Shown piece by piece: positions 4,025-11,720 of a stretch of 23,796 nt of DNA. Within the stretch, counting starts at the first letter, position 1; the number at the start of each line of letters is the position of its first letter. A model generated the notes under the pieces. It did no database searches. It was not told the DNA's origin and saw only the letters and a list, made by a program, of their open reading frames with translations. The translations under genes were made by a program, and so were the position numbers. Source of the stretch: a virus; IMG/VR virus record IMGVR_UViG_3300043313_002960, positions 1 through 23,796 of that record. The stretch is one strand, 5' to 3'.

Positions 4025-5626
4025 GTGACGCTGTTTCGCCCACCGAGCAAGCTGCCGCCCGACACGCCTTCGGGCCTCGGCGCCGTGCTCGGCAAGGCGC
4101 TCACTGAAATCTACGGGGATCTCAAGGCGCTCACCCAGAGCGCGGGGGATGTGAGCGTCGCCACGAGTTCCTACCGCGCGAGCGCGGGCGAGACCAAGCG
4201 CGTCTCTCCTCCGGTCGCGGGCATGGGCTTCATCTTGCCTGCGCCGTCGCCCGAGAATCGCGGCAGCACCATCAGTGTTTTCCTCGAGCAGCCCGAGGGC
4301 GCGCTGCGCGTATTTGTGGCGCCCAATGCCACCAATGACGCGACCGTCAACGGCACGGAGATGGTCAGCTTCACCACCGAGGGCCTGGTTGTTTTCGAGA
4401 GCAACGGCGTCAACCGCTGGAGCGCGATGACGGGCGTGGTCGGCGCGACGGGTGCCACCGGACCGACGGGGCCCACGGGGGCTACTGGAGCTACGGGCGC
4501 GGCATCGGCTGCAAAGCGCATCCGGACCGAGATCTATCGCGCGGACGGTTCGCTCGAGACCCTCGACGAAAACGGCGCCTCGGTCACTACCACCTCGAGC
4601 ACATGGTCTCTGCAGAGCGACGGCTACCGCTATCGCGTTTGGCTGGTCCCGGGCGGCACGGGCGGCGCGCGCGCCCCGCGCACCAATACCACGGGCGCCG
4701 ATTTCACCGGGCCCTCCGGGTCGGGCGGCGGCGCAGTGGGGGATCTTTGGTTCGGCCGCGATGAGCTAGCGGCTTACATTGCAGCCATCGGCACGCCGAT
4801 CCCTGTCACGGTGGGGTTGGCCGGAGCGGGAGCTTCAGCCGGCTCTGCTGGCTCCGGCAATGCCAACGGCGCCCAAGGCACGCTGGGCGGCGTCTCGGCG
4901 TTCGGCGCACTGCTCGCCGCCTATCCGGGCGGGCGCGGCGGCACCAATACCAACAACGGTTCCTCCGCGGCTTCCGGCGCGGGCGGTGGCGGCTGGATGA
5001 GCGCCGGGGCAGACGGCACCGTTGCCAATCAGCCCGGCGGATCTCCGAATGACGTCGATTCGGCCAACACGAAGGACAGTGACTTCGGCGGCGGGCGCGG
5101 TGACACGGGCGCGGCCTCGACGGGCGCGTCGGTCTACGGTGGCGGTGGCGGTGGCGGCAACGCAGCCGGATCCGGCACGAACGGACGCCCCGCGGGGCGC
5201 TCGCTGCAAGGGGTTCCCGGCGCTGGTCCCGGCGGCAGCCTCGACACCACAGGGCCCACGGCGCGCAACGGCGGTGACGCGGGCAAACGGGGCTTCGACA
5301 CGACGGGCGGCACGGCTCCGGCGCTCATCACCGGCGGTGGCCCAACGGGTGGCGCCGGTGTTTCGGGGGCGGGCAACGGCGGCAACGGCGGCGACGGAGC
5401 GGACGGCATCCTCGGCCTGTACCCGGGCCAGAGCGGCGCCGGCGGAGGCGCCTTGATAGCCACCAGTGGCTCGACCTCGAGCACGGGGCGGGGCGGGGAC
5501 GGCGGCTTTCCAGGCGGCAGTGGTGGCTCGTCGGGGGTGGGCGTCGTCAGTGGCGCCACAGCCGTCACGATCGCCCGAGGTGGCGATGGGAAAAACGGCG
5601 TCGTAGTGGTGTTCACCTACGGCTGA
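4025..5626 (+). CDS. Tail fibre/adhesin with collagen-like and glycine-rich domains
   Basis: A 533-aa protein starting at GTG three bases after the preceding stop. Residues 1-135 form a mixed helical/strand head likely to attach to the virion. Residues about 140-160 are seven collagen-like G-A/P-T triplets (GATGATGPTGPTGATGATG), which in phage fibres form a trimeric stalk. A short strand region follows, and from about residue 210 to the end the protein is extremely Gly-rich (runs such as GGGGGGG and GGNGGNGGDGADG). Such domains resemble the polyglycine sandwich adhesins of some phage tail tips (for example the gp38-type adhesin), which bind host receptors. No chaperone gene is obvious nearby. 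Confidence 0.65.
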   Translation: MTLFRPPSKLPPDTPSGLGAVLGKALTEIYGDLKALTQSAGDVSVATSSYRASAGETKRVSPPVAGMGFILPAPSPENRGSTISVFLEQPEGALRVFVAPNATNDATVNGTEMVSFTTEGLVVFESNGVNRWSAMTGVVGATGATGPTGPTGATGATGAASAAKRIRTEIYRADGSLETLDENGASVTTTSSTWSLQSDGYRYRVWLVPGGTGGARAPRTNTTGADFTGPSGSGGGAVGDLWFGRDELAAYIAAIGTPIPVTVGLAGAGASAGSAGSGNANGAQGTLGGVSAFGALLAAYPGGRGGTNTNNGSSAASGAGGGGWMSAGADGTVANQPGGSPNDVDSANTKDSDFGGGRGDTGAASTGASVYGGGGGGGNAAGSGTNGRPAGRSLQGVPGAGPGGSLDTTGPTARNGGDAGKRGFDTTGGTAPALITGGGPTGGAGVSGAGNGGNGGDGADGILGLYPGQSGAGGGALIATSGSTSSTGRGGDGGFPGGSGGSSGVGVVSGATAVTIARGGDGKNGVVVVFTYG

Positions 5627-5666
5627 GAATCAACCAACGGTAGCGGGAGAGAAGAGACCATGAACC

Positions 5667-5933
5667 ATGACCCCGGAATCGAACTTGCTCAATTACGCCC
5701 TCCGAATGCTCTACGAAAGGCACTGGGGTGGTTTCTGTGCACTGATCGCTATCTGGCTGCTCTACCGACAGAGACGCTACTCAAGAGAGCTTGCGGCGCG
5801 GCAGCAGCAGCGCGAATTGCGCTTAGTCAACGAGACGTGGAGGACAGCCTTCGAGACTGTGCTGCGCGAGCAACCGCGGAGGCTCAGAGACTTGGTCGAC
5901 GATACCGAGAGCGAGTCGTCGCACACGCCGTGA
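5667..5933 (+). CDS. Small single-pass membrane protein, possible lysis-related
   Basis: An 88-aa protein with one hydrophobic segment (about residues 19-34, GGFCALIAIWLLYR), then an Arg/Glu/Gln-rich helix (about 35-78). That order, an N-terminal membrane anchor followed by a charged helix, is like an inner-membrane spanin or a small holin partner, but I recognise no family. A purine-rich stretch (GGGAGAGAAGAG at 5645-5656) precedes it. An alternative start at 5660 in another frame would give a 125-aa Arg/Ala-rich protein ending at 6037 with no membrane segment. I prefer 5667 because its protein looks ordinary. Confidence 0.45.
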   Translation: MTPESNLLNYALRMLYERHWGGFCALIAIWLLYRQRRYSRELAARQQQRELRLVNETWRTAFETVLREQPRRLRDLVDDTESESSHTP

Positions 5934-6030
5934 GCGATACCGTGAGATTGACGCAGCTCGATCGGGACCAGGAGCACCGCGAGCTCCTGCATCCGCTGCG
6001 CAAGACCGGGCGCTTTCACCTGCCCATTCC

Positions 6031-6064
6031 AGGCTAGGCCGAGGCGCTCACACAAGGCTAGGCC
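6031..6064. repeat. Ten-base direct repeat AGGCTAGGCC
   Basis: AGGCTAGGCC occurs at 6031-6040 and again at 6055-6064, 24 bases apart start to start. It lies in the convergent intergenic region beside the metalloprotease unit. The repeat is short, so chance is possible. It could be a remnant of insertion or deletion, or a protein-binding repeat. Confidence 0.4.
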
Positions 6065-6186: not shown

Positions 6187-6426
6187 TTACTTCGGCACGC
6201 GGCAGTCGAGGCGCTCACCCGTGCGCACGTGGTAGGTTTCGCGCGCCCAACTCCCGAGCGGTTGGTGGATCTTCACCGCACCGAGGCAGGTTTCTTCGCT
6301 CTCGAGGTTGACCAGCCCCCGCACCGCGCCCGTCACCATGTCGACGGCGACGAGCAGGGTGCGGCTCTCCGCGTGCGCGGCCGAGGCCAGCAGCAGTGCG
6401 GCCACTAACGCCCGGGCGCTCATCAT
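6187..6426 (-). CDS. Small exported protein with signal peptide, partner of the metalloprotease
   Basis: A 79-aa protein with a clear signal peptide (MM-SARALVAALLLASAAHA, cleavage expected after residue 19 at A-H-A). The mature part is about 60 residues with two Cys (47 and 75) that could form a disulfide in the periplasm. No family is recognised. Its ATG overlaps the stop of the metalloprotease gene by four bases (ATGA), so the two are translated from one message and probably coupled. It might be an inhibitor, activator or accessory of that protease; this is inferred from linkage only. The pair is on the strand opposite to all flanking phage genes, as expected for an acquired cargo unit. 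Confidence 0.7.
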   Translation of the reverse strand: MMSARALVAALLLASAAHAESRTLLVAVDMVTGAVRGLVNLESEETCLGAVKIHQPLGSWARETYHVRTGERLDCRVPK

Positions 6427-6992
6427 TGTCGCTCCGGGTGAGCGAGATCCTCGTACCGGGCGAGCGCCTCCTGCCGCACGTCATCGCCGTAGCAGACGAC
6501 AGGCAGGGTCGCGGCGCCGTACTCGGACGCGAAGGCGTCGAGCGCCGCCTGGTCCACGCAGGGCGAGTGGCGGGCATCCCTGCCACGGCCTGGGTTCATC
6601 AGCGTCACGCCTGTGCCGTGGGCAAGGCCCAGGGAATGGCCGAGTTCGTGAGCGAGCGTGCTGATTTTCTGGTCGAGGTACATGCTCTCCGAGAGACGAA
6701 TCTCGTGGGCGGGGGTGTCGCAGCAACCGTTGACGGTGCCGACCTCGCCGCACTCCGCGAGCATCCCGGGCAATTCCCGGATGCAGTAGGTCTCCGAACC
6801 GTCGCAGCCCAAGTGTACGTCGGGCGCGTACAGGCCCCCCGTGGCGCGCTCCCACATCACGATCGCGGAGAGGGATAGATCGCTGATGGTCGGGTCGAGG
6901 CCGAGCGTCGGGTGTAGGCGCGGGTCTTCCGCGGGAGCAGTCCCGGAGCAACCGAGAGCGAGCAGTAAGCCAACCAGCAACGCGCGCGTCAT
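6423..6992 (-). CDS. Secreted lipoprotein zinc metalloprotease (matrixin-like, HExxHxxGxxH)
   Basis: A 189-aa protein. The start is a signal sequence ending in LALGC, which satisfies the general lipoprotein pattern with Cys15 as the lipid-bearing residue and Ser at +2, so export to the envelope of a Gram-negative cell is likely. Residues 115-125 read HELGHSLGLAH, the zinc-binding HExxHxxGxxH of metzincins, with Glu116 as catalytic base, followed at 131-134 by LMNP, a plausible Met-turn. Many Cys (63, 70, 81, 90, 91, 145, 167) suggest disulfides. It is at the small end for a metzincin catalytic domain and has no obvious propeptide. It is the first gene of a two-gene minus-strand unit. The substrate is unknown. 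A role in envelope modification, superinfection exclusion or host fitness is inference. Confidence 0.8.
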   Translation of the reverse strand: MTRALLVGLLLALGCSGTAPAEDPRLHPTLGLDPTISDLSLSAIVMWERATGGLYAPDVHLGCDGSETYCIRELPGMLAECGEVGTVNGCCDTPAHEIRLSESMYLDQKISTLAHELGHSLGLAHGTGVTLMNPGRGRDARHSPCVDQAALDAFASEYGAATLPVVCYGDDVRQEALARYEDLAHPERQ

Positions 6993-7037: not shown

Positions 7038-7059
7038 GGTGGGTCATATTTGACCCACC
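7038..7059. promoter_or_regulatory. Perfect 9-bp inverted repeat between divergent genes, candidate operator
   Basis: GGTGGGTCA (7038-7046) and TGACCCACC (7051-7059) form a perfect inverted repeat around TATT. It sits in the only divergent intergenic gap of the window, 46 bases from the metalloprotease start and 27 bases from the ATG of the small lipoprotein-like gene. A two-fold symmetric site at a divergent promoter is what a dimeric regulator binds. As RNA it could also form a hairpin, but there is no T-run. Confidence 0.5.
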
Positions 7060-7085: not shown

Positions 7086-7295
7086 ATGCTGCGACAAATC
7101 ACTTGGGGGTTCGTCGTCGGATACGTCGGTCTGGTCGCGCTCGGCTACGGGTGTGGCTCTCCCTCGCTCCTGCAATGCCGAGCGGAGGCCGTGACAGCCC
7201 TGCCGCTCGACCCGGACACCATCACCCTGGGAGACGTGCGGGAGGTCGCTCGGCGCGTGAGGGCGTGCCAGGCGCGGCCTGACGGTGGGCCGTGA
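7086..7295 (+). CDS. Small lipoprotein-like or membrane-anchored protein
   Basis: A 69-aa protein if it starts at ATG 7086. A TTG at 7050 in the same frame would lie inside the palindrome and is less likely. Residues 5-22 are hydrophobic (WGFVVGYVGLVALGYG), followed by Cys23 in LGYGC, which satisfies the loose lipoprotein pattern, though Tyr at -2 is unusual. The mature part is short with two further Cys (near 32 and 62). It could be an outer-membrane spanin-like protein, since it opens the cassette that holds the endolysin, but it lacks the usual Pro-richness. No family is recognised. Its stop overlaps the next start by four bases. Confidence 0.45.
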   Translation: MLRQITWGFVVGYVGLVALGYGCGSPSLLQCRAEAVTALPLDPDTITLGDVREVARRVRACQARPDGGP

Positions 7296-7657
7296 CGGAC
7301 GAGATCCGTCCTCCACCGTTGCCCGCGCAGCCCTTCGGGTCAGCCCGGGACGAGATCACCCAGCCCGGCATGGGCCTCGACGTGGAGAAGCTCACGCTCA
7401 AGCGCGAAAACATGCGCCTGCGGCAAGAGCGCAACGAAGCTCGCCAGCAGCTCACCCGGGCCCTGACCGAGAGCGCGTCGGGCTCGACTCCGCCGGACCT
7501 GACGCGCAAGCAGAAGGCAGCCAAGCTCGGTCTGTCCGCGGCGACGGTGACTCTCTTGACTGGCCTCGTCGGGGTGCTGGTCCCGATCATCGAGCGCAAC
7601 TGGCCGGCGTACGCGGGGATCATCAAGGCGATCCAGCAGAACTTGGGTCTGCAGTGA
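7292..7657 (+). CDS. Coiled-coil protein with C-terminal membrane segment, candidate holin
   Basis: A 121-aa protein starting at GTG inside the GTGA overlap with the preceding gene. The N-terminus is Pro-rich (1-25). Residues 30-60 are a highly charged helix (LKRENMRLRQERNEARQQLT) suited to a coiled coil, and 79-100 are hydrophobic (GLSAATVTLLTGLVGVLVPI), followed by a short amphipathic tail with W104. One membrane segment next to an endolysin gene fits a single-span holin or a tail-anchored lysis regulator. The family is not recognised, and a virion protein is possible. It is coupled to the next gene by another GTGA overlap. Confidence 0.5.
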   Translation: MTDEIRPPPLPAQPFGSARDEITQPGMGLDVEKLTLKRENMRLRQERNEARQQLTRALTESASGSTPPDLTRKQKAAKLGLSAATVTLLTGLVGVLVPIIERNWPAYAGIIKAIQQNLGLQ

Positions 7658-7908
7658 ACCTGCTCGAGCAGTGGTCGGATCACGCTCTCACGCCCGGCAA
7701 GCTGCTGCCCGAGTGCGCGGTATGCGGTAAGCCCGTGGAGAGCGCGAGCGCGCGCCGCTGGAACCACAAGAACGCGTGGGAGCTGGTTGTGCACTGCCAC
7801 GGCGACACCGAGTCGGTCACCGTCGACATGAAGGAGGCGATCGTCGCTCAGAACTACGGGGGCATCCGCTTGGGCAGGGCGTTCGAACACCCGAGGATGC
7901 TTCCGTGA
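7654..7908 (+). CDS. Small zinc-ribbon-like protein
   Basis: An 84-aa protein starting at GTG within a GTGA overlap; longer upstream extensions of this frame run over the preceding gene and are not credible. It has a CAVCGK knuckle (Cys21, Cys24) and, later, WNHK (His38) and VHCHGD (His47, Cys48, His49), enough ligands for one zinc ion. No signal peptide or membrane segment is seen. The next gene, the endolysin, overlaps it by four bases. Its role is unknown. Small proteins of this type next to endolysins occur in many phage lysis cassettes without known function. Confidence 0.5.
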   Translation: MNLLEQWSDHALTPGKLLPECAVCGKPVESASARRWNHKNAWELVVHCHGDTESVTVDMKEAIVAQNYGGIRLGRAFEHPRMLP

Positions 7909-8492
7909 CCCCCGAGGACATCCGGGAGTTCCAGCGCTCCCACGTGGACCCGTTCGACCAGCCCCTCCGGATCGACGGCGCCATAGGCCCGCTCACCCAG
8001 TGGGCGCTCGATCTGTTCAGCTGCAGCCCCCGAAGGCGAGCGGTCGTCGCGCGCGCTCAGGCCGCGGTCGGGGTCACCGAGGACCCTCCGGGGAGCAACC
8101 GGGGTCACCGCATCGACGAGTGGCTGCAGCGCTGCCATGTCTCGACGGGCCTACCCTGGTGCGCGGCGTTTGCGTCCTGGTGCCTCGATACGGTAGCGAT
8201 CGCGGGAGCTCAGGCGCTCGGCCATCACTTCCCCGCCGTGGACTCGCCCTTGCCGGGGGACCTGATGTGGTTCTCGACGGCTGCCTCCACCGGTCACTGC
8301 GGCATCGTGGTCGGCCTCGGCCCCCACGAGGTCATGACGATCGAGGGCAACTGCGCGGACGCGGTGCGGGTCGTGCGGCGAGCTCGGGACCGGGTGAGGT
8401 TCAGCTCGACCGGGCAGGACATCCAAGGGACGTGCCCGGGGGCGCTGCCGGTCGTGCCGTTCTTTGGTACGAGCCTGGAGGGCACGCGGTGA
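7905..8492 (+). CDS. Endolysin, CHAP-type cysteine peptidase/amidase with N-terminal peptidoglycan-binding-like segment
   Basis: A 195-aa protein starting at GTG in a GTGA overlap; in-frame extension upstream is shadow sequence. Residues 6-35 (FQRSH, then LRIDGAIGPLTQWAL) match the 'R.DG.iGp.T..Al' signature of peptidoglycan-binding repeats. Residues 47-150 form a CHAP-like domain: Cys86 in PWCAAF as nucleophile, His131 in GHCGIVVG, and Glu147/Asn149 in TIEGN as the third catalytic position. It would cut peptidoglycan cross-links or the amide to the glycan at the end of infection. There is no signal peptide, so it needs a holin or the like. It lies in a five-gene coupled cassette. Confidence 0.8.
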   Translation: MTPEDIREFQRSHVDPFDQPLRIDGAIGPLTQWALDLFSCSPRRRAVVARAQAAVGVTEDPPGSNRGHRIDEWLQRCHVSTGLPWCAAFASWCLDTVAIAGAQALGHHFPAVDSPLPGDLMWFSTAASTGHCGIVVGLGPHEVMTIEGNCADAVRVVRRARDRVRFSSTGQDIQGTCPGALPVVPFFGTSLEGTR

Positions 8493-8707
8493 TCCTCGGA
8501 GCCCTTGGCCGAGCCATCTACTGGACGATCGGCGCCGTGCAGGCCGTGATCGAGGGCGTGGGCGCCGGCAGGAGGCTCATCCGGCAGGTGAGAAAGGGCA
8601 TCGTCCCGATGGTGGACGACACCCAGCCGATCCCGCTCAGCCACCGGGATGTGGGGCGGATCCGGGCGCAGGTGGACGCGGCGACCCAACCACCGGGTAC
8701 CGGGTGA
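8489..8707 (+). CDS. Hypothetical small protein with N-terminal hydrophobic helix
   Basis: A 72-aa protein starting at GTG overlapping the endolysin stop by four bases (GTGA). Residues 1-25 are moderately hydrophobic (ILGALGRAIYWTIGAVQAVI) with a Gly/Ala small-residue face, followed by a basic stretch (GRRLIRQVRKG) and a polar tail. This could be a peripheral membrane or amphipathic helix protein assisting lysis, or a small virion protein, since the large late operon begins right after it. No family is recognised. Confidence 0.45.
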   Translation: MILGALGRAIYWTIGAVQAVIEGVGAGRRLIRQVRKGIVPMVDDTQPIPLSHRDVGRIRAQVDAATQPPGTG

Positions 8708-8711
8708 CACC

Positions 8712-11700
8712 GTGGGGGTAATCACGCGCTACAAGCTCGACGGCGGCACCAATAGCGCCGCCGCTCGACGCATCCTGCCGCCCGAGGGGTTGATCCGGCG
8801 CGCGGTCAACTTTCGGTTGCGCCGCGACAACGAGCTCGAGCAGCGGCCCGGGTTCACGGCCCTGGCGAGCAGCCTCTACGCCTCGATTCTGACCGTTCGC
8901 ATTCACGATCTGGTGAATTACGACGGGCGCCTATTCGGCTTCGGCTCCAATAGCCAGCAGGCGACGGCCAACGTCCTGGGATTCTTCGAGTACGTGGGGG
9001 AATTCAAGGCTTGGCGTCAAATTGACAAGGGCAAGTCGCTGCCACTGGCCACTGACATTCGAGATCTCGCCAGTCCCGCCGATATCGAGCAGGGCGTCCG
9101 TACCGCGACATGCGCCGTCAACGACGATATCTGTGTTTTTGCTTTCGACGCCGGCAACACATCGACGGCTGCCTTTGCGACAGTTTTTCGCCCCAGCGAC
9201 GGCGCGGTACTGTTGCGCCTCGACCTATCGAGCCTGCTGCGGCCGATCTCCCTGCTACTCGCGAGCGGGCTATTTGTCATCGTGGGCAACAACGCCGTCG
9301 GGACCGCGTTACGGGCGCGCTCCTTCAACGCAGCGAGTGACAACACGATATCGGCCACGAGCACGCTGTACACCGTCGACACGTTCGTTTTTGCCGCCGG
9401 AGCCGTGCTCGGTTCTCCAGGAGGGTTCGTTACTGTTGGACAGCTCGCGGGCGACTTGGTCATTCGCCACTACAACGATAGTTTCGTCCAGCAGATGACC
9501 GTGACCAAGGCGGGTCTCGCCTCGAATTATTTGTCGATTGCCGCCAACGGCCCGCAGAACCGAATCACTGTCCTGTATGGGGCATCAGGAGCCACGGTCA
9601 AGGCGCTCACGATCAATCTCGCCACCGGCGCGACCGTGACGGGCCCCACCGCTGTTTTCACCAATACAACGACGGGTCTGCACAGCGTGCTCTACCAGGA
9701 CGCGGTGTCTGCCACCTTTCGCATCCTCGTCGACGTGACGAGCGTGACTCCACGAGCCGTGGGCATCGCCCAATCCGATGACGCGCACGTTGGACTAAAC
9801 CAGACGCTCACCTCTGGAGTGGGATCGGGCAGCTGCTATTTGTCCGCCCAGCTGTCTAGCGAGGTGCTGAGTGTCGATCCCATCGGGCAAGGCTTCACGT
9901 CGGGCTTCGGCTTCCTCGCGGGAGGCACGGACCAGAAAGTCAACGCACTCGGCACGCTCGGTGAAGTGCACTTTTTCAAGGACTTTGGCACCGCGATTGC
10001 CAGCAGTAAACGCCTGGGCTCGCACGTGCGTGACGCGGTGACTGGCAAGTACTACCTGGTCACGATGGCCGCGAATAACGACGGCGAGGAGACCGCCTTT
10101 GTAACCGAGTATCGCGGGGGCGGCATCCGTCGCCGGCAAACAGCCGTCATCGGTGGCCTTCTCTACATCGCCAACGGCCTACCCCTCGTGACCGATGGCT
10201 ACGCGGCCCACGAGATCTCCTGGGGTGAAGCGCCGGAGTTTTTGACACTGACGAGTTCAGGGGCAGGCGGCAGCGTCACGTCGAGCGCGCGCTATTTCAT
10301 CCAGTGCTGCGCCGAGTACGTCGACTCGCGGAAAAACAGCCACCTCGGTCCACCGTCCACCGTCCAGGACATCACCACGGGCGCCGCCGACAATCGCATC
10401 ACAGGCACCATCTCGGGTCTGCATTCCTTGCGTAAAGCCGTGAGCGGCTCGGGGGATAGCGGCAGCTTCCGGCTAGTATTCTTCCGCACGGCGGCCTTGG
10501 CCGATCTCAGCGCGGGGGAGTTGCTGTTCCGGGAATCGCAGACGAGTATCCCGCTGAGTGATGACTTCGGCGATACCTTTGCGTTCACGCTCACGCTGAG
10601 CGACGCGCAACTGCGAGCCATCGGCACGACCATCTACACCCAGAGTCAGACCCCGGTGCCGAACCAGGCCCCGCCTCCCTGCCGGTTCGTTTGGCCGCTG
10701 AACGATCGCCTCGGGGCCGCGGGGCTGCCGCGCGCAGAGCAGATCCTCGAGAGCAAGCTCGTGTTCCCGGGCGAGGCCGTGGCCTTCACCGATAGCGATC
10801 TAGTCCAGTACCAGTACCGCGCGAGCGAGGACGTGCGCGGCATCGCTCGGCTCGGCAGTAACCGGGTCGCCTTCACGCGCAACGAGATCCACCTCTGGCA
10901 AGGCGAGGGCCCGGACTTCAGCGGGCTCGGGGAATTCAGCTACGCCGCGTGCCTCTCGAGTGAGGGCGGCTTAGTCGACACCGACGGCTGGCGGAGCCTG
11001 TGCGAGACGGACGAGGGCACGTTTTTTCAGCGCGAGTTCGACCAGATCTGCCTCTTGCAAAAGGGCGGAAGCGTCGATCGCAAGGTGGGCGAAGCCGTCC
11101 GGGACGAGCTGGTGACCTACCCGGTCGTGGTCGCGACGGCGTTTCTGCGTCGCAGCCATCACGTCGCTTTCGCGATCCAAAACGCCGCGGGGGACGCGGG
11201 CGAGATCCTGGTCTATGACCTGCGGCGAAAGGTGTGGTTCGTCGATGACGTCGGGGTGGTCGATGCCCTGTGCGAGTACCAGGGGCGACTCGTTTACTGT
11301 ACGCGTGCGGGCGCCGTCTTTCAGCAAGACGCCCTGCCCGGCACGGGCTCGATGCCGACGCAGGTACTCGACACGTACGATTTCGATTTCGGCTCGGGGC
11401 AGAGCTGGGGTCGCAGTCTGAACGCCGGCATGGTGGGCGAGTACCAGGGGGACGCTACCCTCGCGCTCAGCATCACCTATGACTCGGGCCTCAGTTACAC
11501 CGCCATTGGCAGCTGGGCCATCACCGCGGCCAACGGCTACAGCGCGGGCAAGCTCTTCAGCGAGAAAAAAGCCATCCCCGATCCGAAGTGCGCTCTGTTC
11601 GGTCTGCGCTGGCAAATCTCTGGTAGCAGTGGCTCGGCGGGCCTGCGCATCAATGAAGTCACGCTCGAAACCGAGACCGCTCCCGGCATGCAACGCTTGC

Positions 11701-11720
11701 CAGCGAGGGACACACAGTAA
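8712..11720 (+). CDS. Large beta-rich tail protein, nozzle/packaged-DNA-stabilisation type
   Basis: A 1002-aa protein read from GTG 8712, four bases after the preceding stop; the upstream extension lies over the preceding gene and is rejected. It opens with 'RYKLDGGTNSAAARRILPP', then 'NFRLRRDNELEQRPGFTAL', a phrase common to beta-propeller tail proteins of short-tailed phages, where the N-terminal segment threads into the adaptor/portal ring. The rest is almost all beta strands, with blocks such as YYLVTMAANND, GGGIRRRQTAVIGG, YNDRLGAAG-like turns and a C-terminal jelly-roll-like end. No membrane segment is seen. The first half looks less GC-rich than neighbours. Family proteins include P22 gp10 and T7 gp12 types. 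The length exceeds both, so an extra domain is likely. Confidence 0.55.
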   Translation: MGVITRYKLDGGTNSAAARRILPPEGLIRRAVNFRLRRDNELEQRPGFTALASSLYASILTVRIHDLVNYDGRLFGFGSNSQQATANVLGFFEYVGEFKAWRQIDKGKSLPLATDIRDLASPADIEQGVRTATCAVNDDICVFAFDAGNTSTAAFATVFRPSDGAVLLRLDLSSLLRPISLLLASGLFVIVGNNAVGTALRARSFNAASDNTISATSTLYTVDTFVFAAGAVLGSPGGFVTVGQLAGDLVIRHYNDSFVQQMTVTKAGLASNYLSIAANGPQNRITVLYGASGATVKALTINLATGATVTGPTAVFTNTTTGLHSVLYQDAVSATFRILVDVTSVTPRAVGIAQSDDAHVGLNQTLTSGVGSGSCYLSAQLSSEVLSVDPIGQGFTSGFGFLAGGTDQKVNALGTLGEVHFFKDFGTAIASSKRLGSHVRDAVTGKYYLVTMAANNDGEETAFVTEYRGGGIRRRQTAVIGGLLYIANGLPLVTDGYAAHEISWGEAPEFLTLTSSGAGGSVTSSARYFIQCCAEYVDSRKNSHLGPPSTVQDITTGAADNRITGTISGLHSLRKAVSGSGDSGSFRLVFFRTAALADLSAGELLFRESQTSIPLSDDFGDTFAFTLTLSDAQLRAIGTTIYTQSQTPVPNQAPPPCRFVWPLNDRLGAAGLPRAEQILESKLVFPGEAVAFTDSDLVQYQYRASEDVRGIARLGSNRVAFTRNEIHLWQGEGPDFSGLGEFSYAACLSSEGGLVDTDGWRSLCETDEGTFFQREFDQICLLQKGGSVDRKVGEAVRDELVTYPVVVATAFLRRSHHVAFAIQNAAGDAGEILVYDLRRKVWFVDDVGVVDALCEYQGRLVYCTRAGAVFQQDALPGTGSMPTQVLDTYDFDFGSGQSWGRSLNAGMVGEYQGDATLALSITYDSGLSYTAIGSWAITAANGYSAGKLFSEKKAIPDPKCALFGLRWQISGSSGSAGLRINEVTLETETAPGMQRLPARDTQ

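Follow-up and report, generated by a model that had tools for sequence, protein, structure and literature searches.

A lipoprotein metzincin gene and a coupled gene for an exported partner in an undescribed lineage of tailed phages

What might a tailed phage do with a predicted lipoprotein metalloprotease and a small exported protein, encoded side by side against the direction of its virion genes? The question is raised by the window analysed here, a complete IMG/VR record of 23,796 bases that holds the virion half of a GC-rich phage. Its virion genes are common to two further contigs, G001 (22.4 kb; L003, L006) and G003 (L129, L134, L135). A sequence-only reading had placed a lipobox, a zinc site and a Met-turn in one short minus-strand protein. 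The coordinates, the strand and the three motifs in a single 189-aa frame were all found to be right. The elements of the unit are:

6423..6992, minus strand: lipoprotein metzincin (matrixin-like), 189 aa, with lipobox LALGC (Cys15), HELGHSLGLAH (115-125) and an LMNP Met-turn (131-134)
6187..6426, minus strand: exported 79-aa partner, with a signal peptide ending in SAAHA and conserved Cys 47 and 75; homologue at L129:1343-1582
7041..7056, no strand assigned: 16-bp palindrome GGGTCAAATATGACCC, lying 48-64 bases before the first codon of the protease

The protease and its partner

The N-terminus of the protease (MTRALLVGLLLALGC) consists of a basic n-region, a hydrophobic stretch and the lipobox; lipoboxes and signal peptides were called throughout by simple rules and inspection. 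Homologues were present at L003:7965-8537 (63% identity) and L129:1579-2055 (36%) and, in an unrelated phage, at L004:7932-8414 (34%). L003 and L004 were found by motif-centred alignment and the G003 copy by alignment of neighbouring genes. Despite only 34-63% identity all of these proteins have a lipobox, which among the relatives reads LGC, VAC or AAC. Single-protein pattern scans returned no relatives of the protease, a fixed-spacing DNA pattern search gave no match, and a genome scan with the pattern AHELGHSLG yielded no confirmed cellular relative. A matrixin match in "Acinetobacter phage MD-2021a" (L002, CAKLQH020000026.1) was rejected as phage evidence because the contig carries dnaK, grpE and purK/E. 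At least here this GenBank-named phage record is bacterial chromosome (dnaK, grpE, purK, purE, mpl).

The zinc-binding site conforms to the consensus HExxHxxGxxH/D, and its core was invariant in 18 phage homologues that had been collected by the HExxHxxGxxH motif itself; the active-site residues were retained in every homologue. The Met-turn that follows the third histidine read LMNP in the window, LMDP in L004 and L129, and LMSH in L003. A check against PF00413 and related metzincin profiles, which the sequence-only reading had pointed to, gave matches that are suggestive only, each falling below its curated cut-off (Reprolysin_3, 7e-4; Peptidase_M10, 0.004). Because the score against PF00413 (Matrixin M10) was 17.6 bits for a cut-off of 24, below the detection threshold, the protein is filed here as a metzincin with a matrixin-like fold and not as a member of M10.

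With an alignment of the 18 phage homologues AlphaFold2 produced a model of mean pLDDT 84.2 and pTM 0.78; from the single protease sequence the model was unusable (pLDDT 35). When the former was compared with the PDB by Foldseek, 50 of the 50 matches listed were matrixin-type catalytic domains (best 1.4e-5). A second structural alignment gave Z scores of 10.8-12.4 across approximately 120-134 residues, led by snapalysin (12.4) and karilysin (12.2), with MMPs at about 11. The fold match spans approximately residues 24-162, far past the zinc motif, and the alignment that fed the model was selected by that motif. Motif and model together support a metzincin with a matrixin-type catalytic fold, as had been proposed, and zinc-dependent proteolysis is predicted from the zinc site and the modelled fold.

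The second gene begins inside the protease stop codon, as first described: its ATG at 6426 sits within the TGA (a 4-nt ATGA overlap) and is preceded by GGAG. By the same rules and inspection its product has a Sec/SPI-like N-terminus ending in AHA, which bears out the signal peptide assigned to it, and a mature part of about 60 aa without a lipobox. The pair was sought in other phages and found in G003, where the partner is 68-70% identical, retains both cysteines and the signal peptide, and again overlaps the protease stop by 4 nt (GTGA). The predicted translational coupling of protease and partner holds up in the window and in G003. Neither result that would have counted against the sequence-only reading was obtained: the model shows a metzincin fold, and the pair recurs in a second phage. 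Between these two phages the partner shows a dN of 0.29 and a dS of 0.87 (dN/dS ~0.33), indicating purifying selection; dN and dS are Nei-Gojobori estimates on single pairs here and below, and are approximate.

In G001 the partner is absent at the locus, where the 3' end of the protease gene adjoins the Gly-rich gene of the opposite strand, and a search across the G001 record, a fragment, found nothing. The pair is thus carried by two of the three known members of the lineage, G001 having the protease alone. Since the partner is conserved with its overlap in G003 but missing at the G001 locus, it is a real, selected gene that is not obligatory for the protease. The word "dedicated", once applied to it, needs correction on this point, as the protease most closely related to that of the window (G001, L003) goes without a partner. 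No family match for the partner was obtained in Pfam, PHROGs or NCBIfam, inhibitor families included, and none in the PDB.

The locus in three related phages

At 40,575 bases, G003 has the same 127 bp directly repeated at its two termini, so the phage genome is probably complete and circular, with 40,448 bases. It encodes a tyrosine integrase (PF00589, 8e-13; phrog_1, 1e-30), so the lineage includes temperate phages. A search of 50,697 GenBank phages with the terminase and the 654-aa gene gave no close match; the lineage formed by the window phage, G001 and G003 is undescribed. The genes around the pair, and the terminase, are as follows:

4025..5626, plus strand: Gly-rich virion/appendage gene, one border of the locus; a Gly-rich neighbour is also present in L003 and L129
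5660..6037, plus strand: 125-aa ORF overlapping the next gene in another frame; conserved in L129 (841-1218)
5667..5933, plus strand: 88-aa protein with an N-terminal TM segment followed by a charged helix; 76% identical to L129:866-1114
7088..7295, plus strand: small lipoprotein-like gene, first of the lysis module, abutting the protease; 57-60% identical to L134:6881-7097
7292..7657, plus strand: TM protein (charged helix then TM) of the lysis module; 94% identical to G003 over 7370-7657
7654-7908, plus strand: 84-aa gene between the TM protein and the endolysin; missing from the otherwise collinear G003 lysis module
7905..8492, plus strand: CHAP endolysin (PF05257, 1.4e-7, in the frame 7776-8492); 82% identical to G003
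8489..8707, plus strand: 72-aa small protein 3' of the endolysin; 68% identical to L134:8040-8276
8712..11720, plus strand: 1002-aa virion-cluster gene, the other border of the locus; 47-49% identical in L003 and L129
22111-23517: terminase (phrog_2, 6e-22)

The setting of the metzincin gene is common to the three contigs: with the Gly-rich gene on one side and the gene of about 1000 aa on the other, it runs against the virion genes. The pair had been described as flanked by lysis and virion genes on the other strand, and in the window this is so (CHAP endolysin, Gly-rich and virion genes). The endolysin module of G003, whose endolysin matches PHROG endolysins, lies 8.9 kb from the protease, however, so endolysin adjacency is peculiar to the window phage; no lysis gene flanks the protease in G001. 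The product of 5667-5933 is i-spanin-like by its anatomy only, with no match to a family or spanin profile, and its gene adjoins the pair in both the window and G003. This ORF and that at 5660-6037 start 7 nt apart in different frames, and both are conserved in L129 (848-1114 and 841-1218). Substitutions by codon position numbered 9, 19 and 20 in the overlap and 5, 5 and 16 downstream, a pattern that suggests true dual coding.

Aligned over its full length with the G001 protein, the protease showed 63% identity (dN 0.32, dS 0.95; dN/dS ~0.33-0.34, indicating purifying selection), as compared to 58% for the terminase and 49% for the 1002-aa gene. Relative to G003 it diverges fastest, at 36% identity (dN 0.69, dS 0.96) versus roughly 43-94% for the other genes compared, and the G003 protein matches that of the unrelated L004 phage a little better (40%) than that of the window. 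On these values the protease has long belonged to the lineage, but the G003 copy either evolves rapidly or was acquired by exchange. The GC content of its gene is 67.7%, within the 63-71% of the phage genes compared. The sequence-only reading had called the position typical of a moron. The reversed orientation and the temperate lifestyle are indeed compatible with an autonomous unit, but the recent gain that the term implies is unsupported, given the same place in three of three contigs, the typical GC content and a conservation like that of the terminase in the G001 pair.

The palindrome GGGTCAAATATGACCC occurs as a sole perfect copy in the window, within the divergent stretch that precedes the protease gene. 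An identical 16-mer, again single, is present in G003 (L129 2122-2137), 67-82 bases before the protease start, and the element is absent upstream of the G001 (L003) protease. Its arms reach 9 bp in the window and are not extended in G003, a difference that favours a DNA operator over an RNA hairpin; the conservation and placing of the palindrome suggest an operator-like element for the protease-partner unit. A search for promoter consensus at the locus found none, a result of little weight where the GC content is high, and just a weak terminator-like site on the plus strand.

Metzincins elsewhere and known protease-partner systems

Proteins with HExxHxxGxxH are common in IMG/VR, occurring on at least 120 contigs, and 13 of 107 called genes have a lipobox by the simple rule. 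A pattern-detectable endolysin lay within five genes of 2 of the 13 lipoprotein matrixins (L071 and L081, from related phages), by neighbour patterns that are crude and also miss CHAP endolysins. The L071 gene is directly 3' of an M15 endolysin and the L081 gene is flanked by a phage lysozyme and a TM/helix gene; these two relatives and L066 pass the PF00413 cut-off. In the related cassettes of L071 (671-2644, plus strand) and L081 (5268-7003, minus strand) the endolysin has been exchanged (M15 or phage lysozyme) while the matrixin and the downstream TM/helix gene are kept. A general tie between lipoprotein matrixins and lysis cassettes was considered and dropped, as the crude patterns show it only for these two. 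In L004, a contig that we read as myophage-like from its gene order, the lipoprotein matrixin ends the late operon, after a TM-plus-coil gene.

Like the window protease, the matrixins of L071, L081 and L004, phages unrelated to that of the window, are short phage lipoprotein metzincins beside endolysin and/or TM-plus-helix genes. They differ in lying on the lysis-gene strand, in having no partner that resembles the 79-aa protein and, except for L004 (34%), in having little similarity to it beyond the catalytic core. Spanins (Rz/Rz1) are likewise comparable in that a lipid-anchored envelope protein is encoded beside a TM-plus-helix gene, but they are non-enzymatic membrane bridges, whereas the window protein has a protease fold and site.

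The sequence-only reading held that phage envelope proteases with a small partner are uncommon. The arrangement does have a published precedent in Listeria prophages and related Firmicutes; in Listeria a phage-derived metzincin, Mtz, and a downstream lipoprotein partner, Tim, are encoded 3' of the holin-lysin genes in prophages (PMC8235301). Mtz cleaves Tim, both are required for the effect, and the two make cells more sensitive to phage lysis and increase the release of virions approximately 5-fold (PMC8235301). The window pair resembles Mtz-Tim in being a phage-borne short metzincin with a Met-turn and an exported partner immediately downstream, and also in that Mtz and Tim are accessory prophage genes often near holin-lysin. 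In contrast, the window protease bears the lipobox and its partner has an SPI-type signal, while the Listeria protease is SPI-secreted and Tim is a TIMP-like lipoprotein. The partner has no detectable sequence similarity to the Tim-like protein compared (hhalign probability 0.2% against the putative one of L065, judged Tim-like by eye), and the phage lineages differ. Relative to known phage metzincin-partner pairs, then, the swapped anchoring, a partner unrelated to Tim by sequence and the undescribed phage lineage are new; a literature search, incomplete in coverage, found no description of a phage lipoprotein matrixin with an SPI partner. In L065 (2387-3508, minus strand), L099 and L124 a secreted metzincin is followed by an exported protein that is Tim-like by eye, and the Listeria-type pair may possibly be more widely spread.

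Cellular matrixins offer two further comparisons. Karilysin of Tannerella forsythia, whose inhibitor is Potempin A, shares the matrixin catalytic fold (Z 12.2 to 4in9), and the KLIKK proteases of this organism mostly have the gene of a specific small exported inhibitor, a potempin, just upstream (PMC7296668). The window protease, unlike these, has no C-terminal secretion domain; its partner is encoded downstream and has no lipobox, whereas potempins are upstream lipoproteins; and karilysin and potempin genes are cellular virulence genes while the window pair belongs to a phage. That the partner is more conserved than the protease was entertained as an argument against an inhibitor and then dropped, since potB2/miropsin pairs show the same (PMC7296668). 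Snapalysin (Streptomyces, M7) is, like the window protein, a small single-domain metzincin and gave the highest Z score (12.4; 2.8 Å over 121 residues), but the identity is 17% and snapalysin is non-lipidated and comes from a monoderm secretor.

What the pair may do

Our preferred reading, to which we assign a probability of about 0.42, is that of an envelope protease and a co-translated exported partner that are accessory to lysis. The protease would be exported, lipidated at Cys15 and anchored on a host membrane. In E. coli, lipoproteins whose residue +2 is not Asp are as a rule sorted to the outer membrane. Residue +2 of the protease is not Asp, and if the host is diderm the protein would be expected at the periplasmic face of the outer membrane, where its matrixin-type zinc site could cleave envelope proteins. 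The 79-aa partner, in the same compartment, would most likely restrain or assist the protease as a co-factor. The pair would be transcribed as a separate unit that opposes the virion operon, with the upstream palindrome as its probable control site, and the resulting weakening of the envelope would most likely improve the release of progeny by the endolysin system of the phage. An envelope protease is favoured by the modelled fold, the retained active site and lipobox, and the overlapping pair in G003. A lysis role is favoured by the conserved spanin-like TM-plus-helix gene that adjoins the pair, by the matrixins that unrelated phages carry inside lysis cassettes (L071, L081) or behind a TM-plus-coil gene where a late operon ends (L004), and by the experimental analogy with Listeria Mtz-Tim, the closest studied system (PMC8235301). 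Against it, the pair lies opposite the strand of the late genes and so is not simply part of the late or lysis transcript. The distant endolysin of G003, the lack of a flanking lysis gene in G001, the 2 of 13 surveyed matrixins near an endolysin and the dissimilarity of the partner to the Tim-like protein also weigh against it.

The opposite orientation would suit a moron-type prophage protease that is expressed from its own promoter in the lysogen and trims surface receptors or envelope proteins, giving superinfection exclusion or remodelling, with a partner that protects the lysogen. The temperate lineage, a palindrome that two phages have here and nowhere else, and a protease that diverges fastest, as expected for varying surface targets, point the same way. 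However, known exclusion families were not matched in the profile libraries scanned, the phage metzincin-partner pair that has been studied affects lysis (PMC8235301), the spanin-like gene adjoins the pair, and no promoter consensus was found, this last being a weak point in a GC-rich genome. We regard such a unit as possible, if rather doubtful, and a lysis accessory as the more likely of the two; exclusion or remodelling is kept open because of the opposite strand, the integrase and the fast divergence of the protease. A more elaborate proposal would join an outer-membrane-anchored matrixin, a cognate non-TIMP periplasmic inhibitor and a dedicated operator into an enzymatic module for envelope disruption or exclusion, a proteolytic counterpart to spanins. 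We consider it unlikely.

The window pair agrees with Mtz-Tim in gene order, in co-translation and in having two exported proteins (PMC8235301), and it might be the same system with its anchor swapped, in which the anchored protease cleaves the exported partner and the product is the active envelope-weakening factor. A protease without a partner at the G001 locus, and a mature partner that is so short and has no detectable similarity to the Tim-like protein, make this very unlikely. Many viral contigs, with diverse surrounding genes, carry a small lipoprotein matrixin, as would be expected if such a protein were a secreted matrixin of bacterial type that serves as nutritional or fitness cargo and has no role specific to the phage. 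That the same place is held in three diverged phages, with the base composition of the phage and a dN/dS of ~0.34 in the window/G001 pair, speaks against cargo, which we rate the least probable reading.

Knowledge of the means, other than holin, endolysin and spanin, by which phages of diderm hosts break through the envelope is incomplete, and hardly any thought has been given to proteases. A lipid-anchored matrixin with a coupled partner, retained at one position in diverged temperate phages, together with lipoprotein matrixins in the lysis cassettes of unrelated phages, makes a part for envelope proteolysis in lysis or exclusion testable. Such a part would broaden what is seen with Listeria Mtz-Tim to further phages, in which the anchor is placed differently.
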